From Actinotalea subterranea (GTDB taxonomy: Bacteria; Actinomycetota; Actinomycetes; Actinomycetales; Cellulomonadaceae), in contig NZ_VTTP01000002.1 of the NCBI RefSeq assembly GCF_008364845.1, positions 124,001-188,000 of the forward strand: a stretch of DNA of 64,000 nt. Direction: 5' to 3'. The notes beneath the pieces were generated by a model. The model had not been told where the DNA came from. It made no database searches and saw only the letters and a list, made by a program, of their open reading frames with translations. Below are positions 14,981 to 18,059 of this stretch, in pieces (the stretch's first letter is position 1; each line of letters starts with the position of its first letter). Position numbers and translations under genes: made by a program.

Positions 14981-15409
14981 TCAGGAGTCGGCGCGCTCCA
15001 GGACGAGTCGCAGCGCATCCACGAGGTCGATCGACTCGCCGTCCCGAGCGCCCTTGCCCAGCACGAGCGGGGGGTCGCTGGGCTCGACGGTCGCGCCCGT
15101 CAGCCGACCGCGCAGCGTAGGCGGGACCGAGAGGATGTAGAACTCGCCGTCCGTGCCGACGGCGACGCTCTCGTTGCGGCGCAGGTACCAGCCGGTCAGC
15201 GGCGTCCGGTAGCGCGCGCGGCCGTCGTAGGTCCGCGCGCGCAGCGGCACGGGTGCGAGCCCCTGCTCCTGCGCGTCGCGGATGAACTGCGCGAGCAGGG
15301 CACGGGCCTGCGCGGCCTCGCCCGACCGGCGGCGTTCGAGCGCGGCCGCGTGCGCGGTCGCCGCCTCGCTGCGGCGCTCGCGCCAGTCCTGGTCCGAGCC
15401 GTCAGGCAC
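14981..15409 (-). CDS. Conserved hypothetical protein coupled to DivIVA-like gene
   Basis: Unknown protein of 142 aa. The N-terminal half is charged and helical (DWRERRSEAATAHAAALERRRSGEAAQARALLAQF). The C-terminal half is beta-rich and looks like the conserved core: YRTPLTGWYLRRNESVAVGT, then EFYILSVPP and later LVLGKGARDGESIDLVDALRLVL. No signal, membrane segment or catalytic motif is visible. The start is GTG 15409, inside the end of the upstream coiled-coil gene (8-nt overlap). The two are therefore probably translated together and may act together. An earlier in-frame start would extend into a Pro/Arg-rich antisense-like stretch and is rejected. Confidence 0.7.
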   Translation of the reverse strand: MPDGSDQDWRERRSEAATAHAAALERRRSGEAAQARALLAQFIRDAQEQGLAPVPLRARTYDGRARYRTPLTGWYLRRNESVAVGTDGEFYILSVPPTLRGRLTGATVEPSDPPLVLGKGARDGESIDLVDALRLVLERADS

Positions 15410-17801
15410 CCTTGCGGTTCCCCGCCCCTCGCGGCGCACGCCCCGGACCCGCTGCGGCGGGCTCGGCGTCGTCGTCGGCCCCGGCCTCGGCGTCTCCGGG
15501 CGTCCCGGGGGCAGCCTGAACCTCGGTGCCTGCCCCGGCCTCGCTGTCTGCCACGGTCTCGGCGTCGGGCTCGGCCTCGGTGGCGGTCTGTGCCCCGGCC
15601 TCGGCATCGTTGCCGGGCGCGGTCTCGTGGTCGGCACCGTGCGCGTCGTCGGCCGTGACCTCGCCGGTCGTGACCTCGCTGGGCTCGTCGGCCACGGGCA
15701 CCTCGGTGACGGCCTCGGGGGCGGCGTCCGCCGGGGCCTCGGCGTCGGTCGGCGGGACGGCTCCGTCCGCTGCCGGGGCGCCGGTCGCGTCCTCGTCAGC
15801 CGGTGCGTGATCCCCGGCCTCGTCGACCGAGGCCACGCCGTCGTCGTCCGGGCGGGCGTCGCCGGCTGCGGCGACGGCGTCCCGGACGTCACCGTCGGCC
15901 GCGGCGTCGGTGCCGGCGCTCGCCGCGCGGGCCGCCGCGAACCGGGCCTCGGCGTGCTCGGCGCGCTCGAGCGTGAGGCGCGAGGGCGTCGGGTCGTGGC
16001 CCAGGAGGTTGCGCAGCTCGTCGAGGTAGCTGGTGATGGACTCGCGCTGGCGGTTGAGGTCCTCGACCTGGCGCTGCGCGCTCGTGCGCTCGCGCTCCGC
16101 CTCCGTCATGGCCTCCGACAGGGTCTTCTCGGCGTGCTCGCGTGCCTCGGCGACGACGCGGTCGGCGTTGCGCCGTGCGTTCGAGAGCAGGTCCTTCGCG
16201 TGCACGTCGGCGTCGCGGCGGATCTTCTCGGCCTGCTCGAGCGCGTTCGCGACGCGCTGCTCGGCCTCTGCGGCATGTGCCTCGGCGTCGGCCACGAGAC
16301 GTTCGGTCGCCACGCGTGCGGCCTCGTGCCGCTCGGCGTCGGCCCGCTCCGCTGCCTCGCGGCGGGTGGCGATGTCGACCTCGGCGTCGGCCAGGGCGTT
16401 GCGCACCTCCTCGCGCATGGCCGCGGCCTCGGCCGTCGCCGCCGCGGTCAGCTCAGCGGCGGTCCGGCGGGCCTCCGTCAGCTGCCGCTCGACCTCGAGG
16501 CGCGTGCGCTCACGCAGCTCGGTGGTCTCGCGCTCCGTGGTCTCGCGCAGCTCGGTGGTCTCGCGCTCCGTCGTGCCGCGCAGCTCGGTGGTCTCACGCT
16601 CGGTCGTCGATCGCAGGTGGGTGGTCTCGCGCTGGGTGGTCTCGCGCAGCTCGGTCGTCTCGCGCTCCGCGGTGGCCCGCAGCTCGGCGGCGTACTGCTC
16701 GGAGTCCGCGCGCACCGTCGCGAGCTCCTCGGCCATCGCGTTGCGGACGGCGGTGAGCTCGTCGGCGACCGCGGACCGCTGCTCCGCGACCTCACGGTCG
16801 GCGGTAGCCCGGACGAACGCGGCGTACTGGTCGGCCTCGGTCCGCAGCGCCGTGGCCTCGGTCTCGGCGCGCTGGAGGACGCCCCGCGCCTCGCGCTCGG
16901 CTGCCGCACGGACGCCGTCGGCGTACTGCTGCGCCTCGGCGCGCAGGGCACCGACCTGGGCGTCCGTCTGCTGACGCAGCTCGGCGGTCTCCGTCTGTGC
17001 GGTGGCCCGCAGGCGTGCGGCGTACTGCTCCGCGTCGGTGCGCAGGGCCGCGGTCTCGGCCTCCGTGCGCTGGCGCAGCTCGGTCGTGTCGGCGTCGGCC
17101 GAGGCCCGCAGGTCCTGCGCGTAGCGCTCGGCCTCGTCCCGGAGCTGGGCCGTCTCGGCCTGGGTCGAGCTGCGCAGCTCGGACGTGGCGCGCTCGGTCG
17201 AGACGCGCAGCTCGGTCGTCTCCCGCTCGACCGTCGCGCGCAGCGTGCCGAGCTCGCGCTCGAGGCCCGTGCGTCGCTCGTTCTCCTCGGTCGTGATGGC
17301 GCTCGAGATGCGCGCGGCCTCGCGCTCGGCGGAACCCACCAGCTCCTCGGCGCGGCGCTGGGCGTTCGTGAGCGTGCTCTCCGCCTCGGAGGAGGCCGAG
17401 CTGCGGACCTCCTCGGCCTCGCGGCGTGCGGTCGCGAGCATCTCGGCGACCTCGTTCTCGGCACGTGCGCGGAGCTGACCCGCCGCGAGCTTCGCGCGGG
17501 CGAGCGCGTCGGCGGCCTGGGCGTTGGCCTGCGCGACGACGTCGGAGGACTGCTCCTCGGCGGACCGCAGGAGCTGCTCGATGCGCGACCCGAGGCCCGA
17601 GTAGGTGGGGCGCTCGGCCTCGCGCAGCTGGCGGTGCGCCTCGGACAGCTCGCCGGAGACCTGCATCGCCTTGGCGTCGAGCTGCTCGACCTGCGTCCGC
17701 GCGTCGGCCAGCTGCTGCTCGAGCTGGCGCAGACGCTGGTCGACCTGGGTCTTCTCGTAGCCACGCATGACCACGGGGAACAGCGTTCGCTCGTCGGGCA
17801 C
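15402..17801 (-). CDS. Large DivIVA-like hendecad coiled-coil protein (Scy/FilP-like)
   Basis: Protein of 799 aa, almost entirely coiled coil. The N-terminus (FPVVMRGYEKTQVDQRLRQL, about residues 8-27) matches the DivIVA membrane-curvature motif. Residues about 214-345 form 33-residue super-repeats, each three hendecads, carrying an AEQYAxxLRA-type segment. Residues about 375-430 are five 11-residue repeats of the form TTERETTELRE. A long Ala/Asp/Glu tail (about 627-799) is predicted disordered and ends basic. GTG 17801 is fixed by AGGAGG placed 6 nt upstream. Eleven-residue repeats plus a DivIVA head recall Streptomyces polar scaffold proteins Scy and FilP. A role in polar growth or envelope organisation is inferred, not shown. 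Confidence 0.8.
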   Translation of the reverse strand: MPDERTLFPVVMRGYEKTQVDQRLRQLEQQLADARTQVEQLDAKAMQVSGELSEAHRQLREAERPTYSGLGSRIEQLLRSAEEQSSDVVAQANAQAADALARAKLAAGQLRARAENEVAEMLATARREAEEVRSSASSEAESTLTNAQRRAEELVGSAEREAARISSAITTEENERRTGLERELGTLRATVERETTELRVSTERATSELRSSTQAETAQLRDEAERYAQDLRASADADTTELRQRTEAETAALRTDAEQYAARLRATAQTETAELRQQTDAQVGALRAEAQQYADGVRAAAEREARGVLQRAETEATALRTEADQYAAFVRATADREVAEQRSAVADELTAVRNAMAEELATVRADSEQYAAELRATAERETTELRETTQRETTHLRSTTERETTELRGTTERETTELRETTERETTELRERTRLEVERQLTEARRTAAELTAAATAEAAAMREEVRNALADAEVDIATRREAAERADAERHEAARVATERLVADAEAHAAEAEQRVANALEQAEKIRRDADVHAKDLLSNARRNADRVVAEAREHAEKTLSEAMTEAERERTSAQRQVEDLNRQRESITSYLDELRNLLGHDPTPSRLTLERAEHAEARFAAARAASAGTDAAADGDVRDAVAAAGDARPDDDGVASVDEAGDHAPADEDATGAPAADGAVPPTDAEAPADAAPEAVTEVPVADEPSEVTTGEVTADDAHGADHETAPGNDAEAGAQTATEAEPDAETVADSEAGAGTEVQAAPGTPGDAEAGADDDAEPAAAGPGRAPRGAGNRKGA
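16513..16677 (-). repeat. 33-bp tandem repeats inside the coiled-coil gene
   Basis: Five near-identical 33-bp units start at 16513, 16546, 16579, 16612 and 16645, each beginning CGCAG on the plus strand. Each encodes one 11-residue hendecad of the coiled coil. A degenerate sixth copy starts at 16678. Copy number could vary between strains by slippage. Confidence 0.85.
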
Positions 17802-18059
17802 AGCAACCTCCTGGGAAGGACAGCACTCACGTCCGCCGACCGCGTCGGCCGGCGCACCGGGCCCGCCACAGGGCTCCGCGGTCCGTCGCAGCAGCCAGGG
17901 CGCAGCATGCGTGGCCCGCCTCGCAGCCGACCAGGACGTCAGCGTATCGGTCCTCGCAGCCGCGCCCCACCCCGGCGCAGGGGTCCGTCGGACGCACCCC
18001 GTGGCGCTCGTGGCGGGCACCGGGGCGGACCTCGTCGCGAACCGACCGGCTGTCTCGCC

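Follow-up and report, generated by a model that had tools for sequence, protein, structure and literature searches.

FilP and Scy belong to a group of coiled-coil proteins which, according to passages of PMC9858780 (Martinez-Goikoetxea and Lupas), share an RGYDxxEVD motif, a heptad coil, and hendecads, and range from <200 to >1000 residues. Two FilP hallmark motifs, RGYD..VD and Y.GLG.R, border the first two coils (Bagchi et al., PMC2680258). In the cited family papers, the chains dimerize in parallel via the head and act with DivIVA near the poles, and FilP relatives assemble into filaments in vitro without cofactors (PMC2680258). FilP proteins are known in nonmycelial Actinobacteria (PMC2680258, and passages of PMC4255298 and PMC9858780); the occurrence of the family in simple Actinobacteria, its hendecads, and its range of lengths are already in print. 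The gene considered here lies at positions 15402 to 17801 of a 64,000-nucleotide stretch (the window) of contig NZ_VTTP01000002.1 of Actinotalea subterranea, exactly where the initial annotation had placed it, and on the minus strand. Judged by its motifs and locus, its product is a FilP orthologue, an intermediate-filament-like coiled-coil protein. The new part of the analysis is the integer-hendecad length of the rod and the placement of length changes at its midpoint; we found no report of an integer-hendecad or midpoint rule, of symmetric insertions or deletions (indels), or of antiparallel FilP rods in the open-licence literature.

Both FilP hallmark motifs are present in the window protein, and the forms RGYE..VD and YSGLGSRIEQLLR are conserved across 19 aligned sequences. 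Of the FilP/Scy pattern, the motif is present as RGYEKTQVD and hendecads extend over residues 63 to 425; in residues 1 to 62 the heptad period is no higher than in the top shuffles of the window sequence. With Pfam DivIVA the head scores 26.2 bits (cut-off, 28), and 28.3 to 29 when neighboring matches in frame are included, so that the DivIVA-like N terminus first noted is real yet divergent. A family profile was built from the 19 aligned N termini of relatives; its match to the solved N-terminal domain of GpsB has an E value of 5e-4, with Wag31 and DivIVA chains following only at a nonsignificant 0.39 and 0.42. A model of 115 residues has helices at 17 to 63 and 67 to 114 and a break at 64 to 66 (P65), just before YSGLGSRIEQLLR; Foldseek comparison of models of residues 1 to 115 and 1 to 611 with the PDB gave 0 matches. 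Of 393 genomes of the class, 223 gave matches in the profile search, and two of the four genomes read as Streptomyces have a protein of ~311 residues beside a second of 1132 or 1326 residues, a pair taken as FilP beside Scy. The window's genome has a single copy of the FilP-like gene. Several genomes have two to five head-profile matches (L120, L136 [f37], L321-L332 [f50]), which means that paralogues occur.

We call the window protein FilP-like because 12 residues precede RGYE, whereas Scy starts right before RGYD (as given in passages of PMC9858780), and a FilP orthologue because it combines both hallmark motifs, the N-terminal segment absent from Scy, and the ancestral locus. The earlier idea of a Cellulomonadaceae counterpart to FilP and Scy is correct and is thereby sharpened: the homology search places the protein in the FilP family, not an unrelated one, and within it the protein is a member on the FilP side and not Scy. 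Scy orthology is ruled out by the presence of the head segment together with the single copy, DivIVA itself by a separate DivIVA gene in the genome, and PolyDIV, with its two to eight DivIVA-like domains, by the single RGYD-type motif in the sequence.

With the actinobacterial FilP family (PMC2680258), FilP (SCO5396) included, the window protein shares both hallmark motifs, the hendecad rod, a C-terminal RR/QR-D/E-S-I motif, and a locus linked via common neighbors. It differs in its 47 hendecads (18 in FilP), its longer tail, and the lack of a second copy. With Scy it shares family membership and a long hendecad-rich rod, but Scy exceeds 1000 residues and lies beside filP, whereas the window protein has 799 residues; the Scy rod, 988 in the single copy measured, does not divide into whole hendecads, unlike that of the window. 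The Scy repeat is 51 residues long. The head motif and first coil are common to DivIVA and Wag31; the genome's separate DivIVA match is stronger (C28, on a different contig, 50.7 bits), and the curated Wag31 model reaches 34.9 bits against a cut-off of 260. FilP, Scy, and DivIVA have affinity for cellulose according to passages of PMC6224456, which may concern these relatives too.

The best hydrophobic period of the window protein is 3.655 to 3.67 for residues 63 to 345 and 3.63 to 3.645 for residues 346 to 425. These periods lie above the 95% shuffle level, except in residues 346 to 425 with Ala counted; there the period is clear only without Ala. Over residues 173 to 425, the periodicity power is 27, compared to a maximum of 10.8 in 200 shuffles, and the identity at lag 33 is 0.44, compared to 0.13 expected; the 11-residue register appears continuous by eye from 173 to 436. 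The period of residues 426 to 620 is 3.625, and so the C-terminal third is not clean hendecad. Periodicity analysis thus gives a nonheptad, hendecad-type period over 63 to 425 and a less regular one over 426 to 620. The 33-residue super-repeats with a Tyr-Ala pattern seen in the initial annotation are borne out by the lag-33 identity and by the Tyr positions (227, 260, 293, and 326, at a spacing of 33, then 370, at a spacing of 44), as are the five near-identical hendecads encoded by 33-bp repeats, at residues 382 to 436. The suggestion that the protein has its own repeat length has to be given up, since the 33-residue pattern is three hendecads, and FilP and Scy are already known to be built of hendecads. 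Position-specific residues common to relatives show the 33-bp units to be old; in a comparison of 53 sequences, that of the window was the most homogeneous.

Rod length, measured from motif to motif in 60 of 66 loci of relatives (L007, L056, L065, L066, L069, and L070 were omitted), equals the window's 47 hendecads in 52 of the 60; the rod is 22 residues longer in six of the others, 198 shorter in one, and 220 shorter in one. Repeat number, which the initial annotation had proposed to compare across strains, is accordingly fixed across relatives and not variable, and a variable-number repeat is ruled out. Across Actinobacteria, 170 of the 193 proteins measured have a rod that divides into whole hendecads, with counts of 18, 22, 23, 25, 26, 27, 29, 30, 34, 39, 44, 47, and 49, to which added families contribute 21, 31, and 42. 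The window is one of the 193 rows, and a species may occur twice (there were two collections). Motif positions of 119 profile-based rows were checked by pattern (85) or by eye (34), 13 other rows were entered by pattern, and 19 rows were left uncounted (10 incomplete f47.g134 loci, one contig end, four f45, two f30, and two second copies in f37). Only 3 rods of f47.g134 entered the tally and the tree; once the remaining 35 are added, along with three new rods of 18 hendecads, 173 of 231 are in phase. Further f9 and f50 matches, 38 of 44 of them measured and many from genomes already counted, are all in phase (38/38). A tree built from the motif regions implies 32 changes of length, of which 25 are multiples of 11, compared to 2.9 expected. 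As controls, 57 tails are scattered over all remainders, and head-coil length departs from the usual 55 in 28 rows, by exactly 7 in 15 of them and by other amounts in 13. A rule of steps of 22 only was dropped, as steps of 11 occur. The genus f47.g134 (L229-L238, L249-L277) has the most variable rod lengths seen, with rods of 529 to 1071 residues and 25 distinct lengths in four phase classes (12, 7, 5, and 1).

The length changes of relatives fall near the place corresponding to window residues 322 to 344. We placed the extra block by maximum similarity between relatives of unequal rod length, and in 23 single-block contrasts the mid-range of the block is ≤7% of rod length from the midpoint. 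Each contrast is one author-chosen representative pair per inferred change, the best-scoring where several were scanned, and they are not all independent (nine are f47.g134 and five f44). Outside the 23 stand two f47 multigap pairs and further f47 pairs, three Cellulomonas groups, three distant contrasts of 47 with 44 hendecads, and low-identity f44/f37 contrasts, the last with positions of 0.39 to 0.56. Paralogues of 26 and 21 hendecads, a 55-residue difference with flanks 90% and 89% identical, place the block at 0 to +3 residues from the midpoint, as does the +55 block of f9.g155 (0 to +3); the contrast of 906 with 895 residues gives -4 to +1, f7 gives -7 to -1, f25 gives -16 to +4, and f44.g140 gives -28 to -22. 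An offset of ~10 residues was predicted in writing before the f9, f50, and f44 families were retrieved. Five of the seven subsequent new contrasts agree by mid-range (the f50 paralogues, G586 at -8 to -4, and three 11-steps in f44), and two miss, G595 at -20 to -9 and L357 at +13 to +39 (+2 to +6 against another relative); against two other relatives, G586 gives -34 to -15 and -53 to -8. Tandem duplications planted at random in real pairs were recovered with a median error of 0 and no central pull. In all three groups of Cellulomonas and Actinotalea, the +22 rods owe their extra length to two separate +11 insertions, one on either side of the midpoint, at -120/+122, -66/+94, and -98/+68.

From these placements, we infer a flush antiparallel contact between rods. 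Parallel dimers would pair laterally, antiparallel and end-flush, along the rod, in a contact resembling A12 in intermediate filaments and, in crescentin, the antiparallel contact B-B'. With rods of length L paired in this way, residue i would stand opposite residue L-i, and for this reason hendecad changes at the center or in mirror pairs would keep all contacts, whereas a single off-center change would break facing contacts; were there only the parallel dimer, either half of the rod could change without regard to the other. Crescentin and intermediate filaments are proposed as analogues in that they combine nonpolar assembly, parallel dimers, and an antiparallel lateral contact (passages of PMC10873595); a sequence relation was neither found nor claimed, and the comparison is by analogy only. 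The rod would be a two-headed strut with its length set in hendecads, ~79 nm here versus 31 nm for the 18-hendecad FilP. That the window protein is a FilP orthologue whose parallel dimers pair in this crescentin-like way is, in our judgment, evenly poised between right and wrong. The family-wide proposal, that FilP rods pair flush and antiparallel and that their length evolves mainly in whole hendecads, central or mirrored, as a tunable ruler, is tentative, and we place it a little below an even chance. If true, there would be two-headed struts of ~31 to 160 nm across Actinobacteria, each a ruler between two DivIVA-like heads, and hendecad rods could serve as molecular rulers in nonmycelial bacteria. 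The length rule, derived from genomes, points to particular pairs of residues for cross-linking and predicts the length changes that would be tolerated; in passages of the crescentin structure paper, finding the structures formed by FilP and Scy is called important.

Covariation and the AlphaFold2 model appear to agree weakly with the midpoint pattern. Among 58 rods of 47 hendecads (24 effective sequences), the highest covariation peak lies at +3 to +6 from the axis and contains the top 4 of 416 overlapping antidiagonal windows; this was a second run, with settings chosen after the first ranking was known. The 26-hendecad rods peak at 0 to +3, slightly below the best (+27/+28). The AlphaFold2 monomer, from 28 rows, has helices at 17 to 321 and 345 to 600, the break at 322 to 344 being centered on the midpoint of 333.5.

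A number of results weigh against the proposed contact and its length rule. All 38 measured f47.g134 rods are off-phase, with remainders of 10, 2, 6, and 9; in f44, where 28 of 29 matches were measured, 18 rods are off-phase and 10 in phase; and f5 and f7 are also exceptions to integer-hendecad length. Most f47.g134 changes are ≤60 residues from the midpoint and one pair is ~100 residues off, the distant contrasts of 47 with 44 hendecads miss the midpoint by as much as 15% of rod length, and two gaps fit somewhat better in 2 of the 23 contrasts (f47j, gain of 21, and f9.g159, gain of 23); the LL end of the rod was picked after the first placements were known. Two of the three double insertions are asymmetric by ~30 residues, and only -120/+122 is symmetric within error. 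An earlier covariation run with other settings had its best antidiagonal at -28 and the axis cluster second, the 29-hendecad rods peak at +9/+10 with a stronger peak at +20 to +24, and the effective sequence numbers of the sets are 24, 12, and 8.5. The AlphaFold2 break has low confidence, coincides with the least conserved part of the alignment, and comes from a monomer model only, and the 611-residue model is without the break at P65, unlike the short model. When antiparallel rods were docked by charge, the stagger was not consistent, and zero stagger was not favored. Microscopy of FilP, in passages of PMC6599971, describes parallel 37-nm dimers and ascribes a 60-nm nonpolar repeat to partial tail-to-tail overlap; the 60-nm repeat neither demonstrates nor excludes a flush lateral contact.

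The same pattern might arise in an ordinary FilP in which partners bind the conserved ends of the rod and the middle is a free spacer. Slippage of the 33-bp units would yield the hendecad steps, and central growth would be a by-product of mutation and weak constraint. Rod conservation is indeed lowest in the middle, near-identical 33-bp units exist, and the off-center changes in f47.g134 are as expected of such a spacer. The placements, however, are tighter than a broad free zone would give, with f47.g134 rods of ~690 to 980 residues changing mostly ≤60 residues from the midpoint and several shorter rods ≤8 residues from it. Moreover, the window's most homogeneous array lies at +48 to +102, yet 52 of 60 relatives have a rod of unchanged length, and both groups whose rods gained an insertion in this stretch carry a second one on the other side. 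We regard this explanation as possible, if somewhat improbable.

A chain folding back at the rod midpoint as an SMC-like hairpin, with antiparallel pairing within one chain, would likewise yield paired and central indels, and the break in the AlphaFold2 monomer falls where such a fold would turn. There is, however, no Gly or Pro at 322 to 344, and the 37-nm length of isolated FilP rods, compared to 40 nm for an extended coil (passages of PMC6599971) and ~23 nm by arithmetic for a hairpin, argues against it; we consider the hairpin quite unlikely. The rod also matches Pfam Apolipoprotein (PF01442) at 65.7 bits (E value of 5.7e-18), and two apolipoprotein chains were the only matches in a PDB search with the window protein, as if the rod were an amphipathic helix lying on the membrane and not a coiled coil. 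Against this, the score is under the gathering score of 90, on which ground identity as an apolipoprotein was rejected, the common 11-residue period would be enough to explain the match, and FilP relatives make filaments in vitro (PMC2680258); a membrane-lying helix seems to us very unlikely indeed.

Table 1. Positions in the window of the filP-like gene, the parts of its product, and the adjoining gene
Feature	Positions	Strand	Remarks
FilP-family gene	15402..17801	-	799 residues; GTG start at 17801, TGA stop ending at 15402
Shine-Dalgarno sequence AGGAGG	17807..17812	-	5 bases upstream of GTG
Head, residues 1-63	17613..17801	-	DivIVA-like motif RGYEKTQVD (13-21) and first coil
Second FilP hallmark motif YSGLGSRIEQLLR, residues 67-79	17565..17603	-	N-terminal rod border; hallmark per PMC2680258
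Rod, residues 67-600	16002..17603	-	47 hendecads from motif to motif; ~79 nm if a single helix
33-residue Tyr-Ala super-repeat, residues 217-381	16659..17153	-	
Five near-identical hendecads, residues 382-436	16494..16658	-	Encoded by 33-bp repeats
Rod midpoint, residues 322-344	16770..16838	-	AlphaFold2 model of 611 residues has its helix break here
C-terminal rod motif LNRQRESITSYLDELRNLL, residues 582-600	16002..16058	-	
Ala/Pro/acidic tail, residues 601-799	15405..16001	-	Length and charge variable
Gene for 142-residue protein, family none known	14981..15409	-	Overlaps end of FilP-like gene

The tail after the last rod motif comprises 199 residues, 24% of them Asp or Glu (D+E), in agreement with the acidic tail first described. 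The acidity is not conserved, as D+E ranges from 7 to 34% (median of 17%) over 58 tails including that of the window, and a conserved acidic tail was rejected.

The neighbors kept around orthologues are, upstream, genes for a thioredoxin-TPR protein, a lipoprotein-like protein, and a membrane protein and, downstream, two alpha/beta hydrolases. The thioredoxin-TPR gene is found at 50 of the 66 loci of relatives and at 9 of 20 loci from other genomes. At the Pseudonocardiaceae-like locus L109, it lies near thiolase and methylmalonyl-CoA epimerase genes, the epimerase adjoining filP, and at Micromonospora-like and Streptomyces-like loci the epimerase, thiolase, and MeaB genes are beside filP or scy. 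The thioredoxin-TPR and hydrolase genes in common tie the window locus to the Pseudonocardiaceae-like loci, and the gene probably occupies the ancestral filP site. Proximity of methylmalonyl-CoA epimerase or crotonyl-CoA reductase is, in passages of PMC9858780, a feature of Scy and of some FilP clusters only. The window's genome has no methylmalonyl-CoA epimerase gene above the cut-off, a further difference from FilP; crotonyl-CoA reductase was not searched for.

The 142-residue protein encoded after the FilP-like gene has no match in Pfam or NCBIfam. A relative of its gene is present at 59 of the 66 loci, and in 57 of these 59 it is on the same strand, after the stop of the FilP-like gene; it may be a translationally coupled partner of that gene. 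At L022 and L061, the match to the 142-residue gene is shifted with respect to the stop codon that ends the FilP-like frame, possibly owing to frame differences in the tail.

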